Origin: a virus
Length of the DNA stretch: 57,592 nt
Direction: 5' to 3' (one strand)
Virus record (IMG/VR): IMGVR_UViG_3300030085_004520
Coordinates: 10,863-68,454 of that record
Shown piece after piece: positions 221 through 54,133 of the stretch. Below the pieces are notes generated by a model. It was given only the letters and a program-made list of their open reading frames with translations, ran no database searches and was not told the origin of the DNA. Made by a program: the position numbers and the translations under genes. Each line of letters begins with the position of its first letter. The stretch's first letter is position 1.

Positions 221-3200
221 TTAAATATTAACGTGAGCGTAGCCTCCAGACTTGTCAATACTGATCTGCGTGTCAACTGAATCTTTCAGTGCATCAAGAT
301 GTGAAATAAGAATAACAGTTTTAAAGTGACTCTTAACCATATCTATAATTCTGACAAAACCTTCCATATTGTCTTCGTCCAAAGCTGTACCAGGCTCATC
401 CATTATAAATAGGTCTGGCTTTGGTAAATTTGTCACACTTAATAGTGCTAATCTAATTGCCATTGAAGAAATAGTCTTTTCAGCACCAGATCCCATTTCT
501 AATGGTCTTGGTTCATACTTAGGATGCTTGATAAATATGTCAAGACTTTTACCCTCGTTGAGAATAAACACTTCAAAGTCAACAATTCCTGTTAAAATCT
601 TTGCAATTTCCTCATTGATAAGTGGTAGTCTATTTTTTATGATATCGTAAGATATACCATCAGGATGGCAACAATCCATGTACAGCTTATATGCTGAAAA
701 CTCTGCTCGTAGTGTTTGCAACTCCTGCTTATCTTCCTGTAAGGATTTGATCTGTTGCTCAATTGAACCAACATCTCTAAATAGCATGTTTGTGTTGGCT
801 CTGCACTGATCAATCTCTTTCTTTGTATCAGCAATAAGTTTTTCTGTAGTATCTCGTTTTTTAACTACGCCTTCAAGATTTTCAATAACCTCTTTATTTT
901 GCTCATAAAGTTTAAGCTTTTCTTCCAAAGAAGTAAGTTCTGACCTGAGTCTAAAATCTTGACCCGATATCTTTTCAAGCTGCAGTTCAATTTTTGAAAT
1001 AGCTGATTCTGTATCTGTTCTTTTTTGTAAAACCTGGTTGTATCTTTCAATGTAAGATTCAACTTTATCAGGCTCCATTTCAACTAGCTCCTCTCCAATA
1101 GCATTAACTCTAAGTGCAACTTTACCATTATCAGATTCCACTATTTGAATTAACTCTAGGGATTTGTGCGCATCTTCAATAAATTTGCATGTTGGAAACT
1201 GGCTACCACATGGAACTTCTTTCAGCAAGTCAGACTTATTAAGAAGTCTTGTTCTTTCATTTGAGTTCTTCTCAAGCTCAGAAATAAGAGATTCCAACTC
1301 TTTTCTTTTGTTAGAGACTGATTCAAGTTTTTGTTCGTAGGTTTTGATTTCAAAACCCTTCATGAATTCTTGAATCTTGGAAAGATATGACTTGTCAGAT
1401 ACCAACTGTGCCGTTAAGTCCTTCTTCTCAGCTTCATAACCTGAAATACTCTTGTTAATATTTTCAATTTGTGTTTTCAATTTCTTGGGATTAATAATCT
1501 CCGTTGGAGCAGAATCAATTTTGCTTTGCAAATCCGCTAAAAGCTTTTTTGAAACCTCTAGACTTTCAGATAGGGCAACACATCTTTCTTGATTTTCTTC
1601 AAGTTTGTTGTTGCTCTCCTCAAGCAGAAGCGAGTTCTCATCAATAAGCTCATCATAGTTCACGGCTTCAAGCTTCTTAAGCAAAGCATGCTTATCTTTA
1701 GATTCTGCCTTTGCAAGCTCATGCTTTTTCTCAAATATCTCTAAGTCAAGAAACTTAGCAAGAATCTTCTTTCTATCTGTAGTCTTCTTACCAATAAAAG
1801 TAAGAGAGTCAAGCTGCGATGCCATTGAAGTCATAAGGAAATCATCCAGTAAACCAAAGTGCTTTCTGATATTGCTGTTGGTTTCTCCCTTAGCCACACC
1901 ATTTAATTCCGTCACATTGCCAATGGCATCTGTCACATAGAAGTCAGTTGCGGTCTTCGCCTCTAAAGTCTCAACACCTTTTAATTTTTTGATATACTTT
2001 TCTGTCTTTCTCTCAATACTGTAAGTCTTATCTCCAACGTCTATAACAATTTTACCAAAGCCATAATCTTTGTTTTGATTTACAATATTCAAATTCTTCC
2101 TGATAGGCTTAGATACATTCTCATAGATTGTATAAAGCATACTATCAACAATAGAAGATTTTCCAGAGAAGTTCTTTCCGAAAATTCCTACGATACCATT
2201 GAGTTTATCAAAGTTAATCTTGTTATTCTCGCCATAATTAAAAAAGTTATCCCACTCCAAGCTCCTAACTGACCAGTTAACATTTCGGTAAACATCTTCG
2301 CTCTCCTCAATAGACGCATTGAAACGAGTGTTCATCGCAAGAATATTGTTCATAACCTCTTCACTGATCTCGTAATCTTTAAGATATTCTCTGATCAGCT
2401 TTTGTTGAATAGAAATATCACGCAGGTCTTCCTTGGATGAGACATTGGTGGCATCAACACTGCCTGACTTTACATCCGACTTATTCATGTATGTTACAGT
2501 GTCAGGTTTAAATTTATGCTTAACGAGGTCAATTGCCCGACGCATCTTGTGGAGTGGGATATTGGACTCAGAGACAACTCTAACTCTTGCCCCCTCAGTT
2601 ACATCAAGGCCTTTGGGTAAGGTGGCATCAGGATTCAAAGTAATCGTAACAAATGGCTTTGGATTCTTGAATGTGATTAGCTTACAAGTAAAGTCTTCCT
2701 TGTCTTTGATGTCCCAAAGTAAGTAACCTTTGTCCAAACACTCACCAAAGTTTTGCTGTACAGTAGAGCCAGGATACCTAATAGTACCTTTCAAATCTAG
2801 GATTTGGGTCTTGTGTATATCCCCAAGAAAAGCAAAGTCAAACTTATCAAAGATGCTAATATCATGATCACCCTCCAATGTCCAATTCAAATCTGTCTTA
2901 GCCCTATCAATCAACCCGTGGTAAAGAGCTATATTAACTAGACTTTCATCAGAAGGTGAGGTCCAATTATCTTCATCAAACACGGATAAAACATTTAAAG
3001 CAAAAGAATTATCAAGAATCACTTCTTGAGATTCTTTTAGCAAGTGTAGATTTGGATTGTCAAGTGCCTGCACAATTGGAGTAAGTGCGTCTTGCCTACT
3101 GGCGTTCTTAAGATTGCCATCGTGATTGCCTAAGATAACATACGTAGGAGCTATGCTTGCTAAGTTGGTTAAAAACTTAGAACACATCTCTACAAATTCG

Positions 3201-3361
3201 GGAGATATTTGAGTTTTAGTGTGGGCGATATCTCCACAGTGAATAATGTAGTCTACATTCTCACTTTTCAAAGATTCATACAATTGTTTGAACACTTCAT
3301 TGTATTCATGATGATATTTAAGATTACGAATATGTGTATCAGCTATATGAGCGAAACGCAT
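221..3361 (-). CDS. SbcD-SbcC (Mre11-Rad50, T4 gp47-gp46) fusion recombination nuclease
   Basis: One chain of 1046 residues that carries both halves of the SbcCD/Mre11-Rad50 complex, which trims DNA ends for recombination-dependent replication and repair. The N-terminal 0-300 residues are a calcineurin-type nuclease: DTH (Asp8, His10), GD at 43-44, GNHD at 78-81, a His at 148 and GDIH at 180-183 supply the metal ligands. Residues about 365-1046 are the Rad50/SbcC ATPase: Walker A GKNFSGKSS at 395-403, a long coiled coil (about 540-890), signature MGSGAEKT at 956-963, Walker B ending in Asp988-Glu989, and the H-loop ISHLD at 1019-1023. A Cys718-x6-Cys725 pair at the coiled-coil apex is a candidate zinc hook, wider than the usual CxxC. 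In T4 and most bacteria the two subunits are separate genes (established knowledge). Start supported by a GGAGG site and by a strong promoter just upstream. Confidence 0.95.
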   Translation of the reverse strand: MRFAHIADTHIRNLKYHHEYNEVFKQLYESLKSENVDYIIHCGDIAHTKTQISPEFVEMCSKFLTNLASIAPTYVILGNHDGNLKNASRQDALTPIVQALDNPNLHLLKESQEVILDNSFALNVLSVFDEDNWTSPSDESLVNIALYHGLIDRAKTDLNWTLEGDHDISIFDKFDFAFLGDIHKTQILDLKGTIRYPGSTVQQNFGECLDKGYLLWDIKDKEDFTCKLITFKNPKPFVTITLNPDATLPKGLDVTEGARVRVVSESNIPLHKMRRAIDLVKHKFKPDTVTYMNKSDVKSGSVDATNVSSKEDLRDISIQQKLIREYLKDYEISEEVMNNILAMNTRFNASIEESEDVYRNVNWSVRSLEWDNFFNYGENNKINFDKLNGIVGIFGKNFSGKSSIVDSMLYTIYENVSKPIRKNLNIVNQNKDYGFGKIVIDVGDKTYSIERKTEKYIKKLKGVETLEAKTATDFYVTDAIGNVTELNGVAKGETNSNIRKHFGLLDDFLMTSMASQLDSLTFIGKKTTDRKKILAKFLDLEIFEKKHELAKAESKDKHALLKKLEAVNYDELIDENSLLLEESNNKLEENQERCVALSESLEVSKKLLADLQSKIDSAPTEIINPKKLKTQIENINKSISGYEAEKKDLTAQLVSDKSYLSKIQEFMKGFEIKTYEQKLESVSNKRKELESLISELEKNSNERTRLLNKSDLLKEVPCGSQFPTCKFIEDAHKSLELIQIVESDNGKVALRVNAIGEELVEMEPDKVESYIERYNQVLQKRTDTESAISKIELQLEKISGQDFRLRSELTSLEEKLKLYEQNKEVIENLEGVVKKRDTTEKLIADTKKEIDQCRANTNMLFRDVGSIEQQIKSLQEDKQELQTLRAEFSAYKLYMDCCHPDGISYDIIKNRLPLINEEIAKILTGIVDFEVFILNEGKSLDIFIKHPKYEPRPLEMGSGAEKTISSMAIRLALLSVTNLPKPDLFIMDEPGTALDEDNMEGFVRIIDMVKSHFKTVILISHLDALKDSVDTQISIDKSGGYAHVNI

Positions 3362-3382: not shown

Positions 3383-3412
3383 ATTATATTATAAATTGAT
3401 ATTAAATGTCAA
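3383..3412 (-). promoter_or_regulatory. Sigma-70 type promoter before the recombination nuclease gene
   Basis: Read on the minus strand, TTGACA (3407-3412) and TATAAT (3383-3388) are separated by 18 bases, a perfect match to both host sigma-70 hexamers. A second overlapping TATAAT lies at 3388-3393. The -35 hexamer overlaps the last bases of the upstream small gene. Transcription would start around 3376, followed by a GGAGG ribosome site and the ATG at 3361. This suggests that the recombination nuclease can be transcribed early by host polymerase, independently of read-through from the upstream genes. Sequence match is direct; activity is inferred. Confidence 0.75.
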
Positions 3413-3610: not shown

Positions 3611-4540
3611 TTAAAATTTTAAGCACTGATATAAATAGGTAGCTTCATCAATAAGAGCCGCCTGTTCTTGTCTTTTTAGGAACTGATCTTTTGTCATAGT
3701 ACCAACATCATCAAAACCACTAGTATCTATTCTATATGATTTGATGTCATATTGCAACAATAATTTTATAATTTTCATTTCTTTTTTCTTAGCGTCAGAA
3801 TCAAGGGCTATAAAAACAGTAGGGTTCTCATCAATAATTTTTTGAAACAATACCGTATCTTCCCTCAAGGTTGAACCCAAAAGAGGTATCGCATTACCTG
3901 CAACAATAGCATCAAAAACACCCTCAACTAATACTATCGGTTCATCCCAGTCAATATGAAGATCATTAAAAACAATATCTCTACCTGCTGGTGGATTCTT
4001 GTATCTCGGAAATCTATCTTCATAAGTCCTTGCAATAAAGTAATTAACATCGCCATTCTCATCAAACGAGGGAACACAGATTCTACCAGAATAATCTCCG
4101 AATCTACAAAAACCAATACGCCATTTTAGTATGTCTTCAGCGGTAATACCGCGTCCCCTCAAATAATTCATAGCTTTTACGTAATCAGCATTTGCTTGTT
4201 TTTTTGTCAAAGAAAAGAAAGAGTCTGGCAGTTTGATTACTTGCCTAATATCCTCCTCTTTTTCTTCGGAGAACAAAAAGTCAAATGAATTGATGTCTAC
4301 AACATTATCAAGATCCTTCCACAAAGCATAGTGTTGTCTATCGCCATAACGACGAACAAGTGATTGTAGTTTCAAACCAGAGTAATCACAAATCCAACAC
4401 TTGTATACACCTTTATCAATATTGATTGAAAATTTATTTTTATGATGACCGCACTTTGGGCATTTAAATAAAAGCTCTTCACCAGAAACGTAGTACCTAC
4501 CAAAGATACTCTCTAAAATTTCTAGCTTTTCTGACTCCAT
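3611..4540 (-). CDS. DnaG-type DNA primase (zinc ribbon plus Toprim)
   Basis: A 309-residue primase that would synthesise RNA primers at the phage replication fork. An N-terminal zinc ribbon is formed by Cys27-x2-Cys30 and Cys48-x2-Cys51. The catalytic Toprim domain spans about residues 200-285: the acidic Glu206-Gly207 in VEGVFDA and the DxD pair Asp247/Asp249 in ALDSDA are the expected metal ligands. At 309 residues it is roughly half the size of cellular DnaG and lacks the C-terminal helicase-binding domain, comparable to T4 gp61-sized phage primases. The start ATG overlaps the last 19 bases of the RuvC gene. No gene for a replicative helicase is in the window. Assignment is firm at family level. 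Confidence 0.93.
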   Translation of the reverse strand: MESEKLEILESIFGRYYVSGEELLFKCPKCGHHKNKFSINIDKGVYKCWICDYSGLKLQSLVRRYGDRQHYALWKDLDNVVDINSFDFLFSEEKEEDIRQVIKLPDSFFSLTKKQANADYVKAMNYLRGRGITAEDILKWRIGFCRFGDYSGRICVPSFDENGDVNYFIARTYEDRFPRYKNPPAGRDIVFNDLHIDWDEPIVLVEGVFDAIVAGNAIPLLGSTLREDTVLFQKIIDENPTVFIALDSDAKKKEMKIIKLLLQYDIKSYRIDTSGFDDVGTMTKDQFLKRQEQAALIDEATYLYQCLKF

Positions 4541-5154
4541 TCTAGATACCCTGCCTTAGCAATTACACAACTATCTGATCTATCCATATACCCAGGCCTT
4601 ACATTACCTGACTTTGTATACTCTATCATAAAGTTTGGTACCTCGTCAAGAATAAATTCTAAACTTTTTTGTTTTGCATTTTCTCCGCGTGATACTTTGA
4701 TGCCTATACTCTTTCTGGCAGATGTCGCTGCTAACATTTGCGGCTCACAGTGAAAGATATCCCAACACATCCAAGACACCATACCATTGAATCTTGACAA
4801 GGTAGACAGGGTTTGCGCAGATGAGAAACCAGAGCGGAAAGAATGTAGTGACTGCTCTATGTAGATGGCTTCTATATTATGGTGCTCATATTTTATTTGT
4901 TCAAGTTGATCTCTTATGTGCTGGGCCTTATGGTACAATGTAGGGTAGCGGTTTTTGTTTCTTGTGTCCCAGTGATCGCAAGTAACAACTGCACCCTGTT
5001 CTGATATAATTGTATAACCTGTTATGCTTGTTGAAATGTCAAGCCCTAGTAAAAATTTTTTGATAATTACCTCATTTCGTTTTGGTAAATGTAATAAATG
5101 TAATCTTTCATGACTGATGGCTTGTCTTTTTCTTTTGCGTGAAACCACTGCCAA
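4522..5154 (-). CDS. RuvC-type Holliday junction resolvase
   Basis: RNase H-fold endonuclease expected to cut Holliday junctions or branched replicating DNA before packaging. Visible catalytic acids, numbered from the TTG at 5154: Asp39 in LLGLDIST, Glu100 in IYIEQ, and the Asp191/Asp194 pair in MDRSDSC near the C-terminus, in the order expected for RuvC. The start is unresolved. The first in-frame conventional codons, TTG at 5154 and GTG at 5148, have no ribosome site and would make an 87-base overlap with the J-domain gene; no ATG lies between there and the conserved core. A GAGG site precedes in-frame ATT (5065-5067) and ATC (5062-5064) codons exactly where the upstream gene ends, so a rare start codon is possible. 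The domain is certain; the first 29 residues may not be real. Confidence 0.88.
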   Translation of the reverse strand: MAVVSRKRKRQAISHERLHLLHLPKRNEVIIKKFLLGLDISTSITGYTIISEQGAVVTCDHWDTRNKNRYPTLYHKAQHIRDQLEQIKYEHHNIEAIYIEQSLHSFRSGFSSAQTLSTLSRFNGMVSWMCWDIFHCEPQMLAATSARKSIGIKVSRGENAKQKSLEFILDEVPNFMIEYTKSGNVRPGYMDRSDSCVIAKAGYLEWSQKS

Positions 5155-5747
5155 GCTGCCGATCTTTCTATCTTACCAATCTCATTCCTGGTTTTTTCTA
5201 TCCTTTTACGAACGTGCTTCGTGTCTTCTGCAGTAGGTTCAGGAAACTCAATATTTAAATGCAGAGCAACATCCATTAATTGCACATAATCGCCAGTACT
5301 AACAGCCTGTTGAGCTTTTTTAAAAAGCAACTCTTTCTGTAATTGCTCTATTTCAGACATACCCTTAAGTTTATCAGGATGTGTAATTTTTGCAATCTTT
5401 TTATACACATCTCTTAGCCTTTTTGGTGCTACATGTTTTTTGATCTCTTTTCTTTCTGGTTCTTGTTCTTCTGTAAATTCATTTTGTTGTTCGCTTGTAT
5501 GCTGACTTTGTTCTGATTCAGGCTTTTCGTTTGAAGTTTCCCGATCTTCAGATGGGCTTTTTGTCTTATCTTTGTCTTTAAAATATTCTTGAATCTCTTC
5601 AGGCAAAGTCTTTAAACGCTCTTTAAAACTGACTGAAAAATTTTCCATCGCCTCTTGTTCAAGCTGTTGGTGCATTGATAACTTTTCTCTTAGGAATCTG
5701 GCCTGTAATATAAGTAGCTTGAATTTTTGTTCATCTGTGACTGGCAT
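5067..5747 (-). CDS. J-domain (DnaJ-like) protein
   Basis: A 226-residue protein whose central part (about 105-170) is a J domain: a basic helix (RLRDVYKKIAK), the invariant His123-Pro124-Asp125 tripeptide, and a following helix with KKAQQAVSTGD. J domains stimulate the ATPase of host DnaK/Hsp70 (established knowledge). Residues about 55-100 are a low-complexity, Glu/Gln/Ser/Lys-rich linker and the N-terminus is helical. There is no Gly/Phe or zinc domain. It sits between the tail-protein genes and the recombination genes, so it could recruit the host chaperone to virion assembly or to replication; the sequence does not decide. Its ATG forms a one-base TAATG overlap with the preceding gene's stop. 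Confidence 0.85.
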   Translation of the reverse strand: MPVTDEQKFKLLILQARFLREKLSMHQQLEQEAMENFSVSFKERLKTLPEEIQEYFKDKDKTKSPSEDRETSNEKPESEQSQHTSEQQNEFTEEQEPERKEIKKHVAPKRLRDVYKKIAKITHPDKLKGMSEIEQLQKELLFKKAQQAVSTGDYVQLMDVALHLNIEFPEPTAEDTKHVRKRIEKTRNEIGKIERSAAWQWFHAKEKDKPSVMKDYIYYIYQNEMR

Positions 5748-7057
5748 TAAAAATCCAACTTAAGCTTGAATGTGATATCTCTTTGTTCAGTTTTTCTAAC
5801 TGGGTTTGCGAGTTTGGCGATAGCAATTAAATTTTTATTTTCATCATAAATACCAATTTTGGAAATGTATGTTTGTTTTTGAAAAATTGAACCTGTGCCT
5901 TCATGTCTGTTGTGGTAAAGTTGTTTTATCTCAAGGTTTGGATCTTCTATATAGTGATTAGATCCAGTTGATGGCAATCTAGAAGCTTCTTGATCTTTTG
6001 CTATAAATGTTGGGTTTGTGCTAGAATTAAGCTCACCCTGTGGCGCGTGGGCAAACATAGTGACAGTGGGAATGTAATTAACTCCCTGGTAGTGAATCGT
6101 AAATGCAGAACCTGTTAAGTTGCCCTTAGCTGTTGAATCATTAGCACCAGCACCAAAGTTGTACCATTTTGGATTACTAAAATCTGTACCTACATATTTA
6201 TCTGAAAAATTTCTATTAATATCCCAACTACCTGTAAGTGCAATAAACCCCTCGTTATAAAGCACAACACCCGCGACCTTGTTTCTATTGGCTTTTGAGT
6301 TGTACGTGCCACTGACTTGAACTAGTTCGCCATTTTTATTGACATCACTTACCTCAGCAGCCAGAGTACCAGTTATAAAAAACTTAAGAGAAACACTTCC
6401 TTTTTTTATTGAAGACCCAAAAAATATTGATGGTATTTCTATGAGGGACATTTCTTGCAGTGACTTATCCCAAGAAATTTTTGGTCTCAAATGCTCTTGG
6501 ACAGACGCCTGATTGAAAGCATAATGTATACTGTTGTTGGTGTACTTATTGAAAATGTTTCTTAAAGCTAAAATTCTTCTCTTATTAGAAACAGTTTGAG
6601 TAAAGTCTCCGTTTTCCTCTAGCACAGATACTGTTTTTGTAGAAGTAGAGGAAGCACCAAATCTTGTACGGTAAATACTGGAACTAAGAGGGTAAGCAGA
6701 CTTCATTATATCACCATAATTGAATCCAGTAAAACCTGTGGTGCTTACAGTTCTAAAAGCAGTTCTAGAACCCTCTTTAGTAATAAACTGATAAATTGAT
6801 GTTCCATCTGGTGGAACGTCGGTCCCAGTATTGATATTGGAAGCAACGTTCAACTCGTACAAACTTATAAAACCTTGAGGTACATTGTTTTCGTTTACAA
6901 GAGTGGACTCCGCAACTGGACCTTTTGTGCTCTTAACGCCAGAGTTTTTCTCGCCATCAATATAAACTTTGGCATCATATATTAAGAAATCTTTTTTTGG
7001 AAATGTTTTTACTCTATTGTAAAGTAAGTCCTCTGTGTTGAACCTATACATAGACAT
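5747..7057 (-). CDS. Virion structural protein, paralogue of its neighbour
   Basis: A 436-residue protein with the Ser/Thr/Gly/Asn-rich, beta-strand-like composition of phage virion proteins and no enzymatic motif. Its C-terminal 90 residues align by eye with those of the next protein upstream (7062-8336): both have a SSTNPTF/YSSNPTY segment, a stretch ending in an IAIAKLANPVRK or LAVAKLSEPLRK motif, and a final KLDF/RLDY. The pair therefore looks like a tandem duplication with diverged N-termini. Possible tail-tube-, collar- or fibre-associated protein; the exact place in the particle is unknown. Two candidate ATGs lie at 7057 and 7051. Confidence 0.75.
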   Translation of the reverse strand: MSMYRFNTEDLLYNRVKTFPKKDFLIYDAKVYIDGEKNSGVKSTKGPVAESTLVNENNVPQGFISLYELNVASNINTGTDVPPDGTSIYQFITKEGSRTAFRTVSTTGFTGFNYGDIMKSAYPLSSSIYRTRFGASSTSTKTVSVLEENGDFTQTVSNKRRILALRNIFNKYTNNSIHYAFNQASVQEHLRPKISWDKSLQEMSLIEIPSIFFGSSIKKGSVSLKFFITGTLAAEVSDVNKNGELVQVSGTYNSKANRNKVAGVVLYNEGFIALTGSWDINRNFSDKYVGTDFSNPKWYNFGAGANDSTAKGNLTGSAFTIHYQGVNYIPTVTMFAHAPQGELNSSTNPTFIAKDQEASRLPSTGSNHYIEDPNLEIKQLYHNRHEGTGSIFQKQTYISKIGIYDENKNLIAIAKLANPVRKTEQRDITFKLKLDF

Positions 7058-7061
7058 AGCA

Positions 7062-8336
7062 TTAGTAATCCAGCCTTACTCTTAGAGTCAATTCGTTTGT
7101 TGGGTCTTTTCTAAGCGGCTCAGACAACTTGGCAACCGCTAGAAGTTCGTTGTCGGAACTATAAAGACCTACGGAAGTAACATATGATATAGGCATATCA
7201 GTTGCAATGTTTTTAACTCTAATCTTACTATCTGCCAAGTAAGTTGGGTTAGAACTGTAGTTAAACTCATTATGATGTGCTCTACAGAAGTAAACAGAAG
7301 AATTAAGCTCTGTTGTATTATTAAAAGTGATTTTCTTTATTCTGTGACGCAAGCCATTAGCTGCAGTCTGAATGGTAGAACCAGTCAATAATGCATAGAC
7401 ATCTTTGCTTCTAATTTCCGTCTCAGTTGGATTGATGGGCTTACTTTGAGGCACCATGATGCAACTAGCTGAATTTAATATACCACCAGTTAATTGATAA
7501 ATCTGATCCCCGTCAGGACCAGCACCAACAGTTGTACCTGCTTCAACAAACCTAGCAGCGTTAGTGTCAACTGCTTGAGCGAACATTCTAGCATCCAAAA
7601 CAACGATACCAGCCTGATAAAAAATCAAACCAATATTACCAACAGATGTTGGCATGCCTGCCTGTGCTGCAAGGGCATGGGCGATTGCGCCAGATGCTTG
7701 ACCACTAGAGGCGGATAGAATACCAAACTCACCCGCTGGTGAATTCACTCTGTAGTCGTTTTGAGCATTAGTATCTTTGATGATTATGGTACGACCAGTA
7801 TTCTTTCTTAGGTCGCCCTCAACTCTAAATCTAGGATCAACACCAAGCTCCATAGAGAAAGAGCCTTTCTTTATCTCATCCTTGGTAAGAAGACGAGAAA
7901 AGTTTAAAAAGAATGCTTCATGGATTTTACCTTTCAATGGGTTTTGACCAGCAGTGTCACCATCCTGATCAAAAGCTCTTATGTTGCCGTCTTTATCGTG
8001 ACCCATAAGAACTTGAGCCATTTGATTGTAAATTTGAATTTTCTTTTCTTGTTGTGTTCTTTTTACTTGTTTGATATTACCAGATAAAACTGAGCCAGTT
8101 GAAAACCCCACAGATATATCAAAAATATGATTAGCTGAAGAACTTAGGTATGGATAATCAAATACAGATTGAAACATACCGTGAGAGTAGTTTTTGATGT
8201 TAAGCTCAGTATTATTGGGCTTACCTCCATTGTATGTTCCTGAAACTAAAGCACCAGTAATCGGGATTGCCTCATGTAGTAAAGTTTTAGTTGTTACGAT
8301 GTCGCTATTTAGAAATGTTTTAAAAGTAGTTGCCAT
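7062..8336 (-). CDS. Virion structural protein, paralogue of its neighbour
   Basis: A 424-residue protein that looks structural: few charged clusters, many Gly/Ser/Thr/Asn, no signal peptide, no membrane segment. Residues about 45-190 contain the segments FDISVGFSTGS and FFLNFSRLLTKDEI followed by KKGSFSMELG; the 436-residue neighbour has the equivalent KKGSVSLKFFITG, so similarity extends beyond the C-terminus. The C-terminal SSNPTYL and LAVAKLSEPLRK motifs are shared. A clear AAGGA ribosome site precedes the ATG. Probably assembles into the tail or baseplate given the flanking genes (inference). Confidence 0.75.
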   Translation of the reverse strand: MATTFKTFLNSDIVTTKTLLHEAIPITGALVSGTYNGGKPNNTELNIKNYSHGMFQSVFDYPYLSSSANHIFDISVGFSTGSVLSGNIKQVKRTQQEKKIQIYNQMAQVLMGHDKDGNIRAFDQDGDTAGQNPLKGKIHEAFFLNFSRLLTKDEIKKGSFSMELGVDPRFRVEGDLRKNTGRTIIIKDTNAQNDYRVNSPAGEFGILSASSGQASGAIAHALAAQAGMPTSVGNIGLIFYQAGIVVLDARMFAQAVDTNAARFVEAGTTVGAGPDGDQIYQLTGGILNSASCIMVPQSKPINPTETEIRSKDVYALLTGSTIQTAANGLRHRIKKITFNNTTELNSSVYFCRAHHNEFNYSSNPTYLADSKIRVKNIATDMPISYVTSVGLYSSDNELLAVAKLSEPLRKDPTNELTLRVRLDY

Positions 8337-8351
8337 TTTTTAATCCTTGTA

Positions 8352-9365
8352 TTAAACCTTCTTTAAGAATCTAACAGGTATATCAACGGATACACCCACA
8401 GTGGCAGCAGTTACTCTAACAAACGTATCAATAAATCTAAATGACAAACTGTTGTTAAACAAACTATCACCTGTGCCGCCTGAACCTAAAAGTGTTGCAG
8501 AAGTTGAAAGCGTGCTGCCTAGCCTATCAAACAAAAAGTTTGAGTTAGCTAGCTGTGTATTTGGGAGAATCTTGAATTGCAAGACCTTATCTCTAGGTCC
8601 CCTGATTCTGTGTCTTGTAAGTCCTTGCCCATTGTTGTTTGTCTCTGTTAAAGTGTCAAAAGCATTTGTAACCAAACTTGTACCAGCACCAACAAAGTAG
8701 CTTGCAATACCATCATCATCAACAAAAGATACCGACACTGAATTACCTTGAACATCAACCAAGCTGCCCAACCTATTATCTAATTCAATTATAAACTGAG
8801 TTTCAACAAGATCACTAGGGTATGCTACAGTCGGAGCAAGCTGAGTAGTATCAAGACCTAGTTCCACCGCTATCACTGCTGAATCTGGTGATGATAGAGC
8901 TTCCGTTGTTGACCCCTTAATTAAGCCTTTACCAGATATTTGTTCGTTGATTAAAGATTCAGTTCCGCCAACCCTTTCTGATAACTCATCTACCGTGATC
9001 AAATATGAAGAAAGATCGCCGCTAAGCTTTGTAGTTTGTGATGCATTGGCAGTGCCGTTAAGACCACCGTTGTGAAGCTTTAAAACAGGCATATGCAAAA
9101 TGTTTGTTCTGGTAATGCTAAGAAGCTTTGACTTCATAAGAGACGTATTGTTGGTAAAAGCCTCAAGGATAGGAGTTCTCAAAACTTCAAGATCATAAAA
9201 AGAAGACCCACTAGGGTGATTCTTGTTGTATAAAGAATAATCAATTTCATCATCGCCCAAGGCAAACTTTACAATCCTAAAGTCACCACGAGCCATTCTG
9301 AACCTACCAGTGTCTGTCAACACTGCATCTAAAATTATATCACCTGAATTGTCTAGAAACGCCAT
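8352..9365 (-). CDS. Virion structural protein with shared N-terminal module
   Basis: A 337-residue putative structural protein. Its first about 45 residues (MAFLDNSGDIILDAVLTDTG, then FALGDDEIDY) match by eye the N-terminus of the 367-residue protein at 18045-19148 (IDIQLTSYGKYLLSKG, then YAFSDDEVVY). This shared module suggests both dock onto the same partner in the particle. The rest is Ser/Thr/Asn/Leu-rich and beta-like without known motifs. A good AAGGAG ribosome site lies before the ATG in the 80-base spacer. Function beyond structural is not recognised. Confidence 0.75.
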   Translation of the reverse strand: MAFLDNSGDIILDAVLTDTGRFRMARGDFRIVKFALGDDEIDYSLYNKNHPSGSSFYDLEVLRTPILEAFTNNTSLMKSKLLSITRTNILHMPVLKLHNGGLNGTANASQTTKLSGDLSSYLITVDELSERVGGTESLINEQISGKGLIKGSTTEALSSPDSAVIAVELGLDTTQLAPTVAYPSDLVETQFIIELDNRLGSLVDVQGNSVSVSFVDDDGIASYFVGAGTSLVTNAFDTLTETNNNGQGLTRHRIRGPRDKVLQFKILPNTQLANSNFLFDRLGSTLSTSATLLGSGGTGDSLFNNSLSFRFIDTFVRVTAATVGVSVDIPVRFLKKV

Positions 9366-9445
9366 ATGTTAAATACTCCTTAACAAAATATAACCAAAAC
9401 ACAAACTAATTAGTTTTTTCAAAAGAAAAATCAAATAAATATTCT
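9366..9445. other. Largest non-coding spacer, with inverted repeats
   Basis: An 80-base AT-rich gap, the longest without a gene in the window. It holds a perfect 14-base palindrome AAACTAATTAGTTT (9403-9416) and, just beside it, a TTTTTC-TTTT-GAAAAA short stem on the minus strand (9417-9432). Neither is a convincing intrinsic terminator because the stems have almost no G-C pairs. The downstream end holds the AAGGAG ribosome site for the gene starting at 9365. A regulatory or RNA-processing role is possible but unsupported. Confidence 0.35.
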
Positions 9446-12400
9446 TTACTCAAGTTTATATTTGACATCACCTTTATTATCTACTATACCATGCTTTCTC
9501 TTAAATTTAACTCTAACTTCAACCATTTTGCCAGTTGCTTTTGATTTAATTTTATAAAGCAAGGTCTTACCCCAAATTGGATTTTCAGAAACCCCAAGAT
9601 TATAGCCATAATTTTTTTCCCAGTTTGAGTAATTGTAATCATCTTCTATAAGACCAGGGACTTGAGTTTGTAACAATGATGGCTTTATTTGAAGATACCT
9701 CTTGAAAGAAGCCTTTTTATCTGGTACACTTATATCTTTTTCTGGGAACTTATAAATGTTTTGAAGCAAAAAAGCTGATGATGTACCCTCTTGTCTTCTT
9801 AGCTCAACCTCATAGATACTACTTGGTAAAGATGTGTGTCCATGCACATCTGTTGCTCTAAACGCATAGTAATATTTTACATTTGGTACTAGTTGCTCTG
9901 TGAACGTTGTTGATGTGGCACCATATCTTGGTGCCAGTGATTTCAAACCTGCAAAATCAGACCAAGTTGTTGGTTTCCTTCCGAACAATCTAAAAATTTC
10001 AAATTGCAAACATTCATCATCATTTTTAAAATGTATTAATTCAGTCTCGGATGGCGGTTCTCCCCAGTAAGCACCTCGTGCACCAACAACATCAGTAGGA
10101 TCAAGGCCCTGGTTCATTGCTGATATCCAATATTGGTCATAGTCATTTTGCTCTAATATAATTGGTTTTGCAAATAACTCACCTGTTACACTGTTTAGAT
10201 TGAATTGAACTAAATTTGGAGTATCTTTTAGTGGAACTATATCTGCTATCGGAGGTATTGGTGGCTTATCAAGAATACCTACAGACATCCTTCTTACAAA
10301 AGTTTCAGCTATAACAGGGCTTGATTTTGACATTACAGAAAAATGAAGCTCTAAATTAAAATCATCGGTAATAGTTTCATCTGGCTCGTGCCAATAATTA
10401 TAAAGTTTATACTTGTTATTACGGCGACCATGATCCACGTTTGTGTTGATATTTGGATTATCATCGTTGTTTCTATATGGAGATTTTACAGACCCAATTT
10501 GATTGAAACGCCTGTCGTTTTTAGCTGATTGGGTATCAAGATATGCATATTCTGTACCGATAATCAAGCAGATTGAATAAATTTCATATTCATAAGCATG
10601 ACCATACTCAACTTGAGTGTCAATAAATTTTGTTGGATCATCTGTATTCGTACCTGCAAAATAATACGATTTCACATAAGTTCTATTTTCAAAAGTACTT
10701 TGAGCGCCAAAAGGGTTCTCAGTTGCCTCCTGGGGATTATCAAGCTTGTACTTATCAATTCTAAATCCAATTATCTCAGAGTGAGCAAGCTCACCTTCTA
10801 ATATTTGTTGAAAATTTCTTGTTCTAGATTTACAATAATTTAACAACTTTTCTTTAAAAGAAACAAATGCAAAAGCTCTTTTTAGTTTCTCCTCATAAGA
10901 AACACTTTGAGCGCCTGCGACATATTCGGTCATCTGGTCAGACCACTCTTCTAGTGTGATGTAAGAAACATCTTTGTTAAGTTCAATTTTAAGTGTAGCT
11001 TGATCCTCTTCGGAGGTATTTAAAAGATTTGCTGAAACAACAGAGAAATCATTTTTTTCTTCAATTGATGCTAGAGTTGTCATTATTTGTTCAGATCCGT
11101 CTACTGAATCAATTAAATCTAAAAATAGACTCTTTCCAGATTGTCCTATTTCTATATCTGTATACATTGGAAATTGTTTTCTTTCAACATAGATGTCTTT
11201 AAATTCTTTTGATTTGATGTATGTTGAACCAAAAACTGAATTATCTTTATATTGGTCTACTCTTAAAAAATTATATTGCGAAAACAAAGTGTCCTTACCT
11301 GACAATGCAACACCCTGGTTGCGCAAACCAACTTTAACGCCTGACTGTTCTCTCTCTTCAAGGCTTTTAGGATTGTAAATATATGGATCGGGTAAAGATT
11401 TAGGCAACCCATCAATGACTTCTCTCCTTAAGCTGTCTTCAACTCCGTATGGAAAAGCCTTGTATCCCGCATTTTCAAAAAACGCAAATCCCTGATCGGA
11501 TGTAAATCCTTCATAAACAGGATCAAAAAAGTTGTATTCACCTTTCATATAAACGTAAGAACTTAATTTTGTTTTTGCAGTTTGTAAATCGTATTCAGTT
11601 GAAAAAGTAGGTAAACTAGTAACATGATCTTTGAATGTCTTTTTTTCAAAAGTTGCAAACTTTGTGTATCTTGAAGTAATAGGAAGTAAATCCAATATGG
11701 CCTTTTGATCCAAATTGTCCCTTATAGCATGCCCCTGATAATTGAAAAGCTCAAGGTCTGTAAGATATCTGATTGGCCTGTAACAAATAGGGAAGGCATC
11801 TTCAGTATCCATCCTGAGAGGTGTGGTGAAAGCGGTTCTTAACATTACGAAAGCTCTTTTGAGTTTAAACGCATCGGACGCATCGGCAAAAGCCCTATGG
11901 CTATTGATGATTTCCGTAGTGGCACCTTTACCCCAATAATCGTCTATAAGAACTTGGGGGTCACTAATTTCATCTGGTATGAGAGTTTTTTTCCCATAGA
12001 AAGGCATTACAGGAAAAAGATTAGTGCTGTATGGAGGCAAAAGTTTATTTGTTCCATTTTCAATAATTGTGTCACGAGTCATAGGCAAAAAAGCTTTATC
12101 TGTACCAAGAATATCTTGCTGATCGTATTCGCCAAAGAAAAAGCGTTCTGGGTCACGACCTGCAGCCCTAAGAGCGGCTGGCCCTATGGTAACAGCATTT
12201 AACCTGTCACTTGGATGAACAAATGTCTTTCCACCATCAGGGTTAATACCAGAAACTAAAACATTATCTTTTGATCCAAAATGATCTCTGTAATTTTTAA
12301 CCTGATTGTATATTGCTCCAAGAAACGGGAAAAAACCATTAAAATAATTTCTCCAACTCCAACCACTAGTCATATAGGCAAGATAGCCTCCTTCTTTATA

Positions 12401-13495
12401 AAGAATATCATCCCTTACTGTAAGTTCTCTGGTGTGATCAAAATCATACAACTCCTTACCTTGAGGTCCAGAAGCTTGAACCCTGAACAACTCTAATTTT
12501 GCATCCTTACCAAACTCTTCTAGTGCATCAAGAAAGTTTTCTTCTTTACCTTTTTCAATAAAGTATTCAAGGTCAGATAACCTATCTCCCTGTCTCGCTC
12601 TACCGTTACCATGAGCAATATCAATATGTGTTCCAAATTTTGGGTTATGAGGCTTAATAACGATAGGTGTTACTGCCATATTAGACAAATCTTTACTGTG
12701 ATATGCAGAAAATTTAAAGCCCAACTTTGTAGTAGTTGAATTTGAAAAATTGAAACTATTACACATTCTAATACCTTGTTCAGGTGCGGTCTGTGCAAAA
12801 AAGCGAGATGACGTTTCAGAATCTATAACTGCATGAAATTTTCCAGTAACATACCTAAAAGTATCAATATCAATATTATAACCTGGCGAGTTGTGAGGGC
12901 CTCTACGAAGCGATTGCGCTTCTTTTGATGACGCATCGGGCATTAATGGATTGTTAAACTTGCTATATCTTTGTAATCTAGAATTTCCATATGCTGTAAA
13001 GTTGGCGTCAAACACAGGAGACACGACGATATCATCTTTGACATACTGCTCTTTAAATTTCTTTGCAAGATTTGTAAGTGTAGCAGTACTAGTATCAGTT
13101 CTTTGGTTGAGGATTGAGTTGAAGTTTGTAAAAACTAAACTCTCTTCAGGATCTTCTGTAGAAAAAATAAAATTATACGAAAGTTCTCCATCTCTTTTTT
13201 GACCCTCGGCAGATATTGCAACAAACCTTGTGGCCTGAATCTCGCTTGAACCAGTATCTATTTCTGGTTGAAGATCAGATGGAATTTCGTCAGACTCTTC
13301 TGGCTCTTCAACATCTGGATCATCTAGCTCTGTATCTGGTTCAGGTAGCGGAGGATCTAAGTTGTAAATACTGTCCGAATTGTATTCATCAGATATTTCT
13401 CTAATCTGTTCAACCCGAGTTTGTCTAGGATTTGTGCCAGGGGTTTGTTGGGATGTACCACCAGGTGTCTGTGTTCTACAAGGATCTTGACTCAT
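9446..13495 (-). CDS. Large virion structural protein with fibronectin III-like region
   Basis: A 1349-residue protein of unknown precise role. The N-terminal 85 residues are Pro/Gln/Thr-rich and then strongly acidic (Asp/Glu/Pro), which looks disordered. The middle is a long, mixed region rich in Tyr, Phe and Asn. Around residues 1080-1225 there is a fibronectin type III-like stretch: a PPIPPIADI strand at its start and KYYYAFRATDVHG followed by SLPS near its end, the usual F/G-strand signature. Such domains are common in phage tail and baseplate proteins. The gene lies inside a run of structural genes and is flanked by other very large ones, so a tail or baseplate role is likely. Confidence 0.7.
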   Translation of the reverse strand: MSQDPCRTQTPGGTSQQTPGTNPRQTRVEQIREISDEYNSDSIYNLDPPLPEPDTELDDPDVEEPEESDEIPSDLQPEIDTGSSEIQATRFVAISAEGQKRDGELSYNFIFSTEDPEESLVFTNFNSILNQRTDTSTATLTNLAKKFKEQYVKDDIVVSPVFDANFTAYGNSRLQRYSKFNNPLMPDASSKEAQSLRRGPHNSPGYNIDIDTFRYVTGKFHAVIDSETSSRFFAQTAPEQGIRMCNSFNFSNSTTTKLGFKFSAYHSKDLSNMAVTPIVIKPHNPKFGTHIDIAHGNGRARQGDRLSDLEYFIEKGKEENFLDALEEFGKDAKLELFRVQASGPQGKELYDFDHTRELTVRDDILYKEGGYLAYMTSGWSWRNYFNGFFPFLGAIYNQVKNYRDHFGSKDNVLVSGINPDGGKTFVHPSDRLNAVTIGPAALRAAGRDPERFFFGEYDQQDILGTDKAFLPMTRDTIIENGTNKLLPPYSTNLFPVMPFYGKKTLIPDEISDPQVLIDDYWGKGATTEIINSHRAFADASDAFKLKRAFVMLRTAFTTPLRMDTEDAFPICYRPIRYLTDLELFNYQGHAIRDNLDQKAILDLLPITSRYTKFATFEKKTFKDHVTSLPTFSTEYDLQTAKTKLSSYVYMKGEYNFFDPVYEGFTSDQGFAFFENAGYKAFPYGVEDSLRREVIDGLPKSLPDPYIYNPKSLEEREQSGVKVGLRNQGVALSGKDTLFSQYNFLRVDQYKDNSVFGSTYIKSKEFKDIYVERKQFPMYTDIEIGQSGKSLFLDLIDSVDGSEQIMTTLASIEEKNDFSVVSANLLNTSEEDQATLKIELNKDVSYITLEEWSDQMTEYVAGAQSVSYEEKLKRAFAFVSFKEKLLNYCKSRTRNFQQILEGELAHSEIIGFRIDKYKLDNPQEATENPFGAQSTFENRTYVKSYYFAGTNTDDPTKFIDTQVEYGHAYEYEIYSICLIIGTEYAYLDTQSAKNDRRFNQIGSVKSPYRNNDDNPNINTNVDHGRRNNKYKLYNYWHEPDETITDDFNLELHFSVMSKSSPVIAETFVRRMSVGILDKPPIPPIADIVPLKDTPNLVQFNLNSVTGELFAKPIILEQNDYDQYWISAMNQGLDPTDVVGARGAYWGEPPSETELIHFKNDDECLQFEIFRLFGRKPTTWSDFAGLKSLAPRYGATSTTFTEQLVPNVKYYYAFRATDVHGHTSLPSSIYEVELRRQEGTSSAFLLQNIYKFPEKDISVPDKKASFKRYLQIKPSLLQTQVPGLIEDDYNYSNWEKNYGYNLGVSENPIWGKTLLYKIKSKATGKMVEVRVKFKRKHGIVDNKGDVKYKLE

Positions 13496-13501
13496 ACTTT
13501 A

Positions 13502-13530
13502 ATTATACTCCATAATTAATATTATTTCAT
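13502..13530 (-). promoter_or_regulatory. Possible sigma-70 type promoter, near-leaderless
   Basis: In the 41-base gap before the 1349-residue gene, the minus strand carries TATAAT (13502-13507) with ATGAAA (4 of 6 matches to TTGACA) 17 bases upstream (13525-13530). The -10 box ends only six bases before the ATG at 13495, so the transcript would have almost no leader; a GGAG lies 12 bases from the ATG, further than usual. In such AT-rich DNA a chance match is plausible. Confidence 0.3.
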
Positions 13531-13536
13531 TGAAAG

Positions 13537-16500
13537 TTAATATATCTTCCCACCCATTGCAGAAGGCAAACCAGATCCCATTTTCTTAACTGCTGGTGCA
13601 GGTGTAGCTTTGGGCATTGGTGGAGTTTTAGGTACAGCAGTATTAGAGGAAAGTTTATATTTTGGAATCTCTTCTTCAATAGGATCATTTGCTGGTTGTG
13701 CTTTAGGCACAACCTTTGGCGAAGATTTAACCCCTATCTTTTGCTGTTTAGGGGGTATCTCTTTATCGTCTTTGGATGAAGGAACTTTCAATTCTGATAA
13801 TTCTTGTTTTATTTTTTGAACGTCTTCTTTGACTTTTGTAACAGTTTCCTTAGCAGTTTCAAGCTTAGCCACCTCCAATACATCCTTTGATTCTAATTCT
13901 GCAATTTTGTCTTTTTGGATTCTTATCTGAGATTCTAGTTTTTGCCTGTTTTTCTTAGCGAAAGGGGTAGTTTTATAACGAATCCTTTCATACTCCTTTT
14001 GAAGTTTTGCTAGCACGTTTTTTCTCATTTGAAGCTCCTTTGCTCTTTCATCTGCTTCCTTCTGTAATTCTTCCACTTCTTGTTGCTTTTTAGCTTCAAA
14101 TTCTTCTGCTGCTTTTTCTTCCGCTTTTTTGATTGTTGCCTTTTGTGACTGGGTAACTTTAGGCTTTTTAATCACAAAATGTTGAGTGTCCAAAATATAC
14201 TTGCCACTTTTAGCAAGCGCACTAGTTTCAAAAGGAACAAAAGCATAATGACCTGGCTCAAGCCCGTCCAAAGCATCAGCAATAGAAACTTCAACCATTT
14301 TATAAATGTTTGTCCTTGCTTTGTTAGATGCCTCTTTGTCCAGCACTCTTCTTTTCAAAACATAGAAATTTCCATACACCGCTGGATTCATCTTATTGCC
14401 TTTACCTAAACCATAGTCGGTATCACCGTTTATAACTTTTTCAATCTGAAAGGGGTATTTTGTAAGTTCTCCAGATGCAATAGCAGCCTTCTTTTCTTCT
14501 CTTTCTTTCTGCTTTCTTTTAGCCTCTTCAGCAATTCTCATATATTCCTCGGCTCTCTGTCTTTCTTTTATCTTTTGCTCTTGAATAAATGCTTGCTTTT
14601 GCTTGTAAGCTATGTCTTTTATATAGCTTGTATCAGATGTTACTGAAGTATCAATTGTTGCATTATCATCAACGGCAGCAGTTGTTGATGACAGCGTATC
14701 AACATATGCTGTGAACTCTTGAGTGAAAGACTGCTGCAACCCCGTAAATTCCTGCTCTAGCACAGATTCAGTAAACTCCACTCTTTGATTGTGAGTTAAG
14801 GCTTTGATTTGACTATCTGAAAGGGCTGAACACTCTTCCTCAGACGGAACCTCTACTTCGTTTGGCAGTTGCTCACCTATTATTTCTACCACAGCAGCAA
14901 CACCAGGAAAGTCCTCCCCCCTATTGAATAGTTGTCTTGATAGTTCAGCGATTTGTTCTGGTGTTTTGTCGTCAAGATTTACAAAAAACCCTCTATCATT
15001 TCTTAAAAGTTTAGTGACCATATTTGCTATTTCTAGTTTTTGGTTGTTACCAAGAACATCAAAATCCTCTATCATTGCAAAATCTTCATCTGAAAACTCT
15101 CCGTTTTCCTGTCTAGATTTTAGTATTTCTACTTTAGCAAGATATTCTGCTAGAAGATCACTTTTGATCTTTTCAAAATCATCTTGTGCTATACGTAGGG
15201 CTTTGTCCCTAAACTTACCAGGGGATATAGACTGTTTTATTTGTTCCCGACTAGCATCATACTGATCATGGTTTGCTCGTTTTTTTTGAGAATAAACAGT
15301 ATTCAAAGAATCCAAAGCTCTATCATAAGTTAAACTTGAATATCCACCAGTTGTGCTCCACAAATCTAGAATGTTTGAACCATAAAAAATATTGGGGGTA
15401 AAATACGCAACTCTATCAGCATACTGAGAAACATCACCGCCACCAAATTTAACTGACTCTAAAGAAATAGCTTGGCGAATCATTTCTTGCTCAACGATTG
15501 GCACAGGTGTTTGTATGCTCACTTCGCCTCTTGGCAAGATACTACATGTTGGAACTTTTGTATTTCTCAGATCAACAACACCACCACTAACAAGCCCTGC
15601 TTGTTGTTCTGGATTATCGCCAAAAAACTTTTTTACTTTGATTAAGCTAGCAGGTTTGCCGCCATTTGATTTTAGGTCTGATATCGTACCGCCATAAATG
15701 GAGTTTGAAAAATTTATTAAATCAGATAAAGTATGTGCAATAATACCAAACTGTTGACCAAAAGTTTTCAACTCTTTAGCATAAATATTGGCATCTCTAT
15801 TATAATTCAACACTTGCTTTAGATAACTTCTTAGTATTACATAGCCATAATTTCTCCATGCTCCTGTTCCAAGTGACAAATAAATTGAACTGCCGCCTTC
15901 ATTAAGGACTAGTGATCTTTGAAATTCACCCATGGTATTATCTAATATCGGATGATTTGTTTTATTGATACCCCCGCCCTGGGCAAACGTGCCCACATAA
16001 TTAAGAGAGTCAATAATTCCAATCGCTTGAGAGTAAGAATCTATAACTTCATCCATAAGTAAATTATAACTTTGAAAACCAATAGATCTCGCTATCTTTT
16101 GAACAACCGTACCATCAACCGAAGTTTCTTTTGACTCTGCCTCCACAAGCGAAACAAATGAATTCAAAAATGAAGTTAGTCGGGTCATCTTTGCAACTAT
16201 TTCTGTAACATATTTAACAAGACCATCTTCATAAGTTATCTCTATACCATATTGAAACACACCTCTGTGATCCTCTTTTAGGGCAGTAAAGGAGGCGTCT
16301 GCAAAATTAAACGTTCTTCGCCAAGGAAAGTAAGTATCATTTGTGTCAGGATTTGAATGATTTTCTCGTTTATTAAATTCATCTCTGTGCTTTCTAGCAT
16401 CAAGATCATTGGGGTTTTCAGCTAACGTGTTAAGCCAGTTTTGACTATCTATAATCAAACCCTTAACACTGTCATTTGTTTCAGGAAAAAACAGAGCGTC

Positions 16501-48083: not shown

Positions 48084-48482
48084 TTACTCTCCTAAATACT
48101 TTACAACTAAATCATGAATAGAAGAATCAACGTTCTCTCTCCATGAATTATTATTTTCTCTAATATTATTTCTTATGCCAGTAGCAGAAATAAACCCTAT
48201 ATTTTCAGGTGGAACATGTTCGTTGATCTCATAGCCAACACCACGCCCGTAATTTACACTTTCAATATCTGGTATACAAACTACTTCTACATCCTGTTCA
48301 CTATAAACATTCTGTATCATTTCTACAGTCTGCTCTGTGGTGAATGGATTTTTTTCATCTGGTGGAATATCCCTAACTGCGATCAAGATAGGTTTCCCCT
48401 CTGATAGTTTTTGATTAATTAACCACTTGTGACCATTATGAAATGGCTGCCACCGACCAATAAACATCGCTCTTTTAGTCAT
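48084..48482 (-). CDS. Small HxGH nucleotidyltransferase (NMN adenylyltransferase-like)
   Basis: A 132-residue Rossmann-type nucleotidyltransferase. The HxGH motif is His15-Asn-Gly-His18 in GRWQPFHNGH and the second signature is ISATGIR at 98-104 (ISxTxxR), both diagnostic for adenylyl- and cytidylyltransferases of the NadM/TagD/RibL type. Closest pattern is archaeal-type NMN adenylyltransferase, which makes NAD. But next to the APS kinase and sugar genes, activation of a sugar or alcohol phosphate (CTP or ATP) is an alternative. It is slightly shorter than NadM (about 170 residues). ATP overlap with the preceding dehydrogenase gene shows translational coupling. Confidence 0.8.
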   Translation of the reverse strand: MTKRAMFIGRWQPFHNGHKWLINQKLSEGKPILIAVRDIPPDEKNPFTTEQTVEMIQNVYSEQDVEVVCIPDIESVNYGRGVGYEINEHVPPENIGFISATGIRNNIRENNNSWRENVDSSIHDLVVKYLGE

Positions 48483-49359
48483 CTGAGATTGCTCTCCCTT
48501 TCAAATCTTCCCAGTCTTTTTCTGGTCTTACTATTAAGTTAGTTGCCCACGCTCCTTTAAGGACTGATAAATCTAGCCCAACAGAGTCGGCAAAAGCTAT
48601 AAATGCGTTAATGTCTTTTGGGAAACAAGATCCGCCAAAACCTGGCTTACCATCGGGACCTGGCACCTTAATGTGAGAGTCACCTACACGACCATCTGAA
48701 ACAAAACCTCTTACAGCCTTATCCCAATTGATAGTGCCCAACTTATCTGCAACAAGTTTCATTTCGTTCATAAACGACACCTTCACTACAAAAAACAAAT
48801 TATTAAAATATTTAATCATTTCTGCTGTTTCGTAATTAGTGATAACGAAATTGCTTCCAGAAAATCTGGCGTTGTAGAGATCCCTTACCTTATTAGCAGT
48901 CAAATTATCCATTCCATCATCAAGATCAGTCTCAAAACCCAAAATAATCCTTGACTGGTTTAAAAAATCAAATCTTGCATGCCTCTCAGTCAAAAACTCT
49001 GGGTTAAAAACAATGGGAAGAGATGGGTGTTTTTCTTTAAGCTTCCTTGTGGTGCCTGGCACTACTGTTGATTTAAGAACAAACACGGGTGACTCAACTT
49101 CAGGCTTTCTTAGTGTTTCTATATCTTCAAAAACACTCTCAACAATTGAAAGGTCAATCGTACCATCTTGTCTCATTGGTGTTGGGACGCAAACAAAAAC
49201 AACGTCAGAATCATTTACAACTCCGCAGAGGCCCTGGGTAAAGCCTTCTCCAGAACACTTATTTGGGTCCTTGTCATATATCTTTACTTCCATAAATGGT
49301 ATGAAAGCATGAGCAATAGCATTGCCCACAAATCCATTTCCAATAATCCCAAGCTTCAT
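48475..49359 (-). CDS. Short UDP-glucose/GDP-mannose 6-dehydrogenase family protein
   Basis: A 294-residue NAD-dependent sugar-nucleotide dehydrogenase. Rossmann motif GxGFVG at about 7-12, substrate-loop residues in VPTP (58-61), LKSTVVPGTT (95-104), NPEFLTE (119-125) and the nucleophile Cys245 in GGSCFPKD. Family enzymes oxidise UDP-Glc, UDP-GlcNAc or GDP-Man to the uronic acid. Typical length is about 390-450 residues: only about 50 residues follow the active Cys here, so the C-terminal UDP-binding domain is missing and the substrate cannot be predicted. Partial loss of function is possible but all catalytic motifs are intact. An AAGGAGG ribosome site supports the ATG. Confidence 0.85.
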   Translation of the reverse strand: MKLGIIGNGFVGNAIAHAFIPFMEVKIYDKDPNKCSGEGFTQGLCGVVNDSDVVFVCVPTPMRQDGTIDLSIVESVFEDIETLRKPEVESPVFVLKSTVVPGTTRKLKEKHPSLPIVFNPEFLTERHARFDFLNQSRIILGFETDLDDGMDNLTANKVRDLYNARFSGSNFVITNYETAEMIKYFNNLFFVVKVSFMNEMKLVADKLGTINWDKAVRGFVSDGRVGDSHIKVPGPDGKPGFGGSCFPKDINAFIAFADSVGLDLSVLKGAWATNLIVRPEKDWEDLKGRAISDD

Positions 49360-50225: not shown

Positions 50226-50908
50226 GTGTATCCCAATTTCTTCAAGTGCTTCTCAAACACAGGCAACTGTTCTGATGTGCAAATGGATTTATAAGCTTCC
50301 AGGTCTTTACCTACACCTTTGTCACTGACTTTTCTTTTTCCATAACCTTTTTCGTTTCCTTTGCCTGCGCGAGCTAAAACAGAAACATTCCAATCAAAAA
50401 CCCAATCTTCAACGTAGTCTGGGTAATCAGAAAATTTACTATCTGACTCTATGCCGAACTTCTCTTGAATTTGTGCTTGAATTTCATCAGGCTTCCGAAC
50501 AAGATCTTCATAAGATATTTCTAAATCAATTAAATTGCCAAACATTACCTTATCCCTCTGTTCAATACAATCAATCCATCTCTCTGGCTTGACGTAATTT
50601 CCGTCAGAAAGTATAACATCTCTACCATCACGGACAACGTTAATTATTCTAATATCATTTTTGATTACAGATCCAGCTTGCAGATCAAGGTCTCTATTGT
50701 GAATAGTGCTTAACAAAGCTGGAGGGTGTCTTTTGCCTATTGTGAATTTTTGTGTTGGTTCGTAGTCTACAAACTCTTGAAAATCCAACTCGTGACCTTC
50801 TGCTCCACGCCTATACAAAACTTCTGTATCCTTAAATGCAAAACACATACGTAACAAAAGAGTTGTACCAGATTTAGCGCACCCTGTTATAAAAATTTTC
50901 TTAGCCAT
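50222..50908 (-). CDS. PAPS-dependent sulfotransferase
   Basis: A 228-residue sulfotransferase. The 5'-phosphosulfate-binding loop is ITGCAKSGTTLLL (residues 7-19) and the 3'-phosphate-binding stretch is INVVRDGRDVILS (89-101, with Arg93 and Ser101), exactly the two signatures of PAPS-binding transferases. It would move sulfate from PAPS to a sugar hydroxyl or amine, presumably on a glycan made by neighbouring glycosyltransferases. The ATG at 50908 was chosen over an in-frame upstream codon because it overlaps the glycosyltransferase stop as TAATG and has GGGAG five bases before. The PAPS donor can be supplied by the phage APS kinase at 47540-48082. Confidence 0.88.
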   Translation of the reverse strand: MAKKIFITGCAKSGTTLLLRMCFAFKDTEVLYRRGAEGHELDFQEFVDYEPTQKFTIGKRHPPALLSTIHNRDLDLQAGSVIKNDIRIINVVRDGRDVILSDGNYVKPERWIDCIEQRDKVMFGNLIDLEISYEDLVRKPDEIQAQIQEKFGIESDSKFSDYPDYVEDWVFDWNVSVLARAGKGNEKGYGKRKVSDKGVGKDLEAYKSICTSEQLPVFEKHLKKLGYT

Positions 50909-51525: not shown

Positions 51526-51527
51526 AA

Positions 51528-54128: not shown

Positions 54129-54133
54129 AAATG

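Follow-up and report, generated by a model that had tools for sequence, protein, structure and literature searches.

The window analysed here, a 57,592-nucleotide stretch of a viral contig (IMG/VR record IMGVR_UViG_3300030085_004520, positions 10,863 to 68,454), encodes what we read, with a probability of about 0.8, as a phage single-chain Mre11-Rad50 enzyme of the Mimivirus R555-like kind, whose non-canonical zinc hook is exchanged as a cassette. The fusion itself is not new, having been published in 2011 (PMC3175470), and is common in aquatic phages. The unusual and interesting part is the hook, and the suspicion voiced about it in an initial annotation of this DNA was well placed.

The fused gene and its distribution

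Both halves of the enzyme lie, as the initial annotation had proposed, in one uninterrupted frame (Table 1), and the same single-frame fusion is present at 92 other loci. The start codon is preceded by a GGAGG ribosome site, with a promoter match just upstream. In the N-terminal half, Pfam Metallophos (PF00149) covers residues 1-152 (5.8e-13), and in the C-terminal half SMC_N/AAA_23 covers residues 365-1036; the corresponding PHROG matches are PHROG 100 (SbcD) over residues 1-342 and PHROG 77 (SbcC) over residues 264-1041. A search of the 104 kb contig for a second, separate SbcC or SbcD gene returned none.

Table 1. Fused gene, its domains and neighbouring features (window positions)
Feature	Position	Strand	Description
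Fused Mre11(SbcD)-Rad50(SbcC) gene	221..3361	-	1046 aa, ATG start, single uninterrupted ORF
Rad50 C-lobe	224..667	-	Residues 899-1046; signature, Walker B, D-loop, H-loop
Coiled-coil descending arm	668..1186	-	Residues 726-898; AlphaFold2 model
Apex hook loop V-P-C-G-S-Q-F-P-T-C	1187..1216	-	Residues 716-725; between helices 672-715 and 726-762 (model)
Coiled-coil ascending arm	1217..1741	-	Residues 541-715; AlphaFold2 model
Rad50 N-lobe	1742..2278	-	Residues 362-540; Walker A (395-402) and Q-loop (Q516)
Helix-loop-helix, Rad50-binding type	2300..2416	-	Residues 316-354; AlphaFold2 model
Capping domain	2483..2653	-	Residues 237-293; AlphaFold2 model, Foldseek to 7dog
Mre11-type nuclease domain	2672..3361	-	Residues 1-230; Pfam PF00149 and motifs
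Asp181 replacing canonical metal-ligand His (GHxH to GDxH)	2819..2821	-	Alignment to Pfu Mre11 1ii7
Promoter-like site TTGACA-18-TATAAT	3383..3412	-	12/12 sigma-70-type consensus match only; then GGAGG, ATG
DNA primase gene	3611..4540	-	PHROG 47; upstream of the fusion

The contig as a whole (104,141 bp) encodes a portal, head protease, terminase and baseplate wedge and gives a weak late-sigma match, so the phage is probably an uncultured, contractile-tailed one with T4-type core genes; no near DNA relative of window positions 1-25000 was found in the phage collection searched. Elsewhere in the window, positions 9446-42429 (minus strand) hold a run of very large ORFs (1349, 1505, 4118 and 2257 aa), a tail or fibre region by position, the 1349-aa ORF of which has no PHROG match. 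Sugar-nucleotide, glycosyltransferase and Nol-like carbamoyltransferase genes at 48475-57553 (minus strand), as well as at 4162-14222 (minus strand) of L110, form a phage-borne surface-sugar cluster. Outside the window, an adenylosuccinate-synthetase-like gene at 11230-12243 (minus strand) of L111 matches the PurZ family PHROG 1211 (8.9e-76), and either a 2-aminoadenine genome or a plain PurA is possible.

When viral contigs were scanned with only the window protein as query, 12 loci emerged, eight with a full-length fusion and four with fragments, and in an alignment-based scan relatives were encoded by 577 of 600 pattern stretches, 80 of which were kept. The fusion, which had been flagged as a possible rarity, is thus the usual form across a large group of uncultured phages from aquatic habitats. 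Among the first 102 loci, both halves share one frame at 93 (959-1202 aa), including the window's own record. Fused forms were also found in Microcystis phage Mel-JY01, huge-phage records, Xanthomonas phage XacN1 and Rhizobium phages, and separate gene pairs in T4, cyanophage S-CAM9, Melnitz, AG-345-L05, Vibrio PG07 and Nitunavirus. The best viral Foldseek matches of the structure model were R555-like proteins of giant viruses (Tupanvirus, Harvfovirus and Yasminevirus), which have the length of a fusion, and the long viral matches include Tenacibaculum and Listeria phage proteins. A primase homologue lies upstream of the fusion at 77 of the 83 testable loci.

Fusions of Mre11 and Rad50 were reported by Yoshida, Claverie and Ogata (2011; PMC3175470), foremost in Mimivirus (R555) but also in plasmids, bacteria, eukaryotes and a phage. 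The authors showed R555 homologues to be plentiful in viral fractions from aquatic samples, close to phage primases, and inferred that phages of aquatic environments carry such fusions beside primases. The window locus matches this published pattern. With the R555 class the window protein shares the single chain, the order of Mre11 before Rad50, the helix-loop-helix, the short joint, the His-to-Asp change at the Pfu H206 position, the occurrence in aquatic viruses and the nearby phage primase, although it is shorter than R555 itself (1046 versus 1351 aa). The Mel-JY01 protein (WWT39521.1, 1066 aa, annotated 'AAA domain containing protein') is likewise fused, within the same order of primase, small ORF and fusion, but is only 32% identical to the window protein and carries a type B hook (YDPKCKHCC; types are defined below). 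T4 gp47/gp46 show the same order of nuclease and ATPase, in a phage with the same type of head, portal and baseplate genes, and probably perform the same task; however, T4 has two genes, a GHFH nuclease motif and a CPTC hook, whereas the window has a single gene, GDIH and C-x6-C. Escherichia coli SbcCD and archaeal/eukaryotic Mre11-Rad50 share the fold, the catalytic motifs and a coil with an apex, but consist of two proteins with, according to the literature, a canonical CxxC hook.

In pattern scans for hook A and for hook B, of 94 5'-complete ORFs per type, 93 were fused in frame, the counts being of stretches, some from the same contig; in the two unfused exceptions (L121 and L290), the nuclease lies just upstream and the gene is interrupted. 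In L290 (minus strand; interval between the ORFs at offsets 868 and 3597), Walker A of the fused gene is interrupted between QGK and CVDSS, and a 441-aa ORF separates the halves; the break resembles a split intein, and the C half has a sub-threshold match to Pfam Intein_splicing (E 0.002). In L002 (5956-10166 of LR756508, a 484 kb phage), the interruption falls in the nuclease domain, shortly after GDIHK, and consists of an ORF whose features, as judged by eye, resemble those of zinc fingers and endonucleases; L121 is broken near the same place. No known RNA family (Rfam) was found in the inserts of these three loci.

Nuclease site, joint and ATPase head

The nuclease motifs, read from the sequence, comprise D8, H10, D44, N79, H80, H148 and H183, and the calcineurin-like phosphoesterase fold with its capping domain is indicated by PF00149 and by the Foldseek match to the SbcD nuclease and cap (7dog, TMt 0.63). 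The initial annotation had credited the domain with all metal ligands, which holds for all but one. In the Mre11/SbcD ligand set (D, H, D, N, H, H and both histidines of GHxH), the equivalent of Pfu Mre11 H206 is D181, as G180-D181-I-H183 aligns with Pfu GHIH. Aspartate occupies this position in all 94 aligned fused sequences, across which the remaining ligands are invariant or nearly so. Mimivirus R555 likewise has aspartate in place of the first histidine of GHxH (PMC3175470). The change appears to be a conservative replacement common to R555, although it could weaken the nuclease.

The remaining architecture was taken from an AlphaFold2 model of the single chain (72-sequence alignment; mean pLDDT 84, pTM 0.51, apex pLDDT about 71-73). 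A disordered stretch at residues 296-309 separates the cap from the helix-loop-helix, for which a role in Rad50 binding is suggested by the Thermotoga maritima complex, as in PMC3175470, where the N-to-C order and short joint of such fusions were argued to fit that complex. The region 300-365, previously taken for a linker, is thus mostly the Mre11 helix-loop-helix (316-354), and the actual joint to the ATPase comprises about 7 residues (approximately 355-361). All Rad50/SbcC ATPase motifs of the split ABC head are present, as had been noted: Walker A (395-402), the Q-loop (Q516), the signature (S958-G-A-E961), Walker B (D988, E989), the D-loop (D995) and the H-loop (H1021). The two lobes are joined in the model by an antiparallel coiled coil with an apex between its arms, and Foldseek against the PDB matched Mre11-Rad50 and SbcCD complexes.

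Two consequences proposed earlier for the fusion do not follow. The Mre11-Rad50 complex is M2R2 and already 1:1, so that joining the halves leaves the stoichiometry unchanged. Nor is there reason to expect altered coil dimerisation, as the fusion point lies at the head, separated from the apex by a 175-residue coil in the model; for the same reason, no mechanical link between fusion and hook spacing is seen. Fused members with CxxC hooks exist too.

Hook types and their probable exchange

C718 and C725 form a C-x6-C motif exactly at the modelled apex between the coil arms, as initially annotated, in place of the CxxC zinc hook that the literature describes as conserved in Rad50/SbcC and, in one paper, as absolutely conserved (PMC13402864). 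The six separate phage SbcCs compared all have CPxC. At least two apex cysteines are present in 93 of 93 fused sequences, in five hook types comprising Cx6C, Cx2C in two contexts, Cx7C and CxC: type A, PCGxxFPxCKFIKDA (C-x6-C), with both cysteines in all 69 type-A sequences; type B, HEYDPDCKYCxxNKFVKDA (CxxC); type C, C[PST]xC, which is canonical-like; type D, C-x7-C; and type E, GCKC. The apex seems best read as a putative non-canonical zinc hook that is swapped as a cassette.

Hook types are discordant with a tree built from the nuclease and ATPase head columns, with the coil left out. They require 15 changes on an 85-row head tree and 20 on a 203-row one (a larger set, in which counts of types A and B are inflated by the pattern scans used to fetch them), at least 18 of the latter being forced for type A by well-supported branches. 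Different hooks are found on heads that are 96-97% identical, namely in L025 (A) versus L032 (C) and in L128 (A) versus L249 (B). The clearest pair is L249 (CxxC) and L128 (Cx6C), whose heads are 97.4% identical: at the level of DNA, the two are about 88% identical on either side of the hook, but only 45-53% across some 160 bp that include it and 68-72% across the 120 bp that follow; the left edge of the divergent tract is sharp. Within this tract, L249 most resembles other type-B proteins and L128 its next relative by head, L166. This pattern points to replacement of some 160-280 bp surrounding the hook.

Among pairs at 90-99.8% head identity, the three with different hooks share 38-65% identity in their apex flanks; for same-hook pairs the medians are 68% (22 pairs) and 95% (6 pairs). 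The numbers are small and the pairs non-independent. A tree of the apex-flank columns still requires 11 hook type changes, compared with 13 on the heads; since the hook thus moves with little flank, we do not claim that the whole coil was swapped each time. The coil also varies fast at a constant hook, as in L054 and L068, two type-A proteins with 89% identical heads and only 24% identity in the apex flank, and part of its divergence may be ordinary drift. Taken together, hook and distal coil seem to behave as an exchangeable cassette of several types in the fused phage family. Metagenomic assemblies may include chimeras; the hook types nevertheless recur in many independent contigs.

Exchange has to be weighed against rapid drift of an unconstrained coil tip, which would yield different hooks without any cassette. 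The distal coil is indeed the fastest-evolving part in the profiled pairs, and types D and A are similar and could interconvert through a one-residue insertion. Drift is nonetheless an unlikely source of the hook types: A and B each have conserved motifs that recur across distant heads, the L249/L128 tract is abrupt between near-identical flanks, and apex flanks diverge further when hooks differ than when they match (28 same-hook pairs in all). It is similarly improbable that the apex cysteines form no zinc hook and serve instead in an intrachain disulphide or protein contact, with dimerisation through the heads only. The C-x6-C spacing is longer than any hook described in the literature consulted, where one paper calls CxxC absolutely conserved (PMC13402864), and PCG, F and KFI(K)DA are conserved at the apex too. 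Against this, every member retains at least two apex cysteines despite varied spacing, and very close relatives carry CxxC, which fits a common metal-pairing task. Moreover, disulphides are unlikely in the reducing cytoplasm.

Two further alternatives concern the enzyme as a whole. A degenerate nuclease half, with the protein acting mainly as a DNA tether, could be read from the change of GHxH to GDxH, but is very unlikely, as the conservation of the other ligands across the fused sequences implies use, aspartate is able to ligate metal, the same change occurs in R555 (PMC3175470), and GDxH is found in other fused phage proteins. The source record is a virus contig, apparently metagenomic, which leaves room for an assembly artefact with a lost stop or frameshift behind the fusion; this explanation was rejected as next to impossible, given that the loci sharing the frame include Mel-JY01 and contigs from many metagenomes.

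Proposed working and meaning of the exchangeable hook

Domains, motifs, apex position, paired cysteines and the mismatch of hook types with the head tree come from the analysis itself; for the single-chain enzyme with an exchangeable zinc hook, we infer from them activity, zinc binding, dimerisation and a role in replication as follows. Two chains would most likely form the standard M2R2 nuclease, with the nuclease placed in cis at the base of a coil, whether its own or its partner's; this arrangement should copy the known complex because only a short joint, located at the head, connects the helix-loop-helix to the ATPase. ATP would close the Rad50 heads and its hydrolysis open them, upon which the Mn-dependent nuclease would trim and clip DNA ends. 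The coil tips would pair via the apex, with two cysteines per chain and probably one shared zinc, in C-x6-C rather than CxxC spacing. Judging by T4 gp46/gp47, the enzyme probably serves in the resection of DNA ends, in which 3' single strands would be made for recombination-dependent replication; host DNA degradation might also be aided. A RecA-type recombinase (Pfam RecA) was not found on the 104 kb contig, which is possibly incomplete, and this counts against the overall reading.

The frequent exchange of cassettes may result from chance recombination in a region that tolerates it; alternatively, and speculatively, selection may favour hooks unable to pair with those of the host or of rivals. 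Tolerance is plausible because an SMC-type (MukB) hinge can replace the hook of yeast Rad50 (PMC6969161). A bolder and doubtful possibility is that mutually incompatible hook types recombine onto near-identical heads, such that each phage enzyme pairs only with itself and not with that of the host or co-infecting relatives; if true, incompatible hook types would give a DNA repair protein its own recognition system. Whereas CxxC is described in the literature as absolutely conserved, the fused family presents several non-CxxC spacings and frequent exchange, and it offers near-isogenic proteins, differing mainly in hook and distal coil, for testing hook geometry and specificity in Mre11-Rad50.
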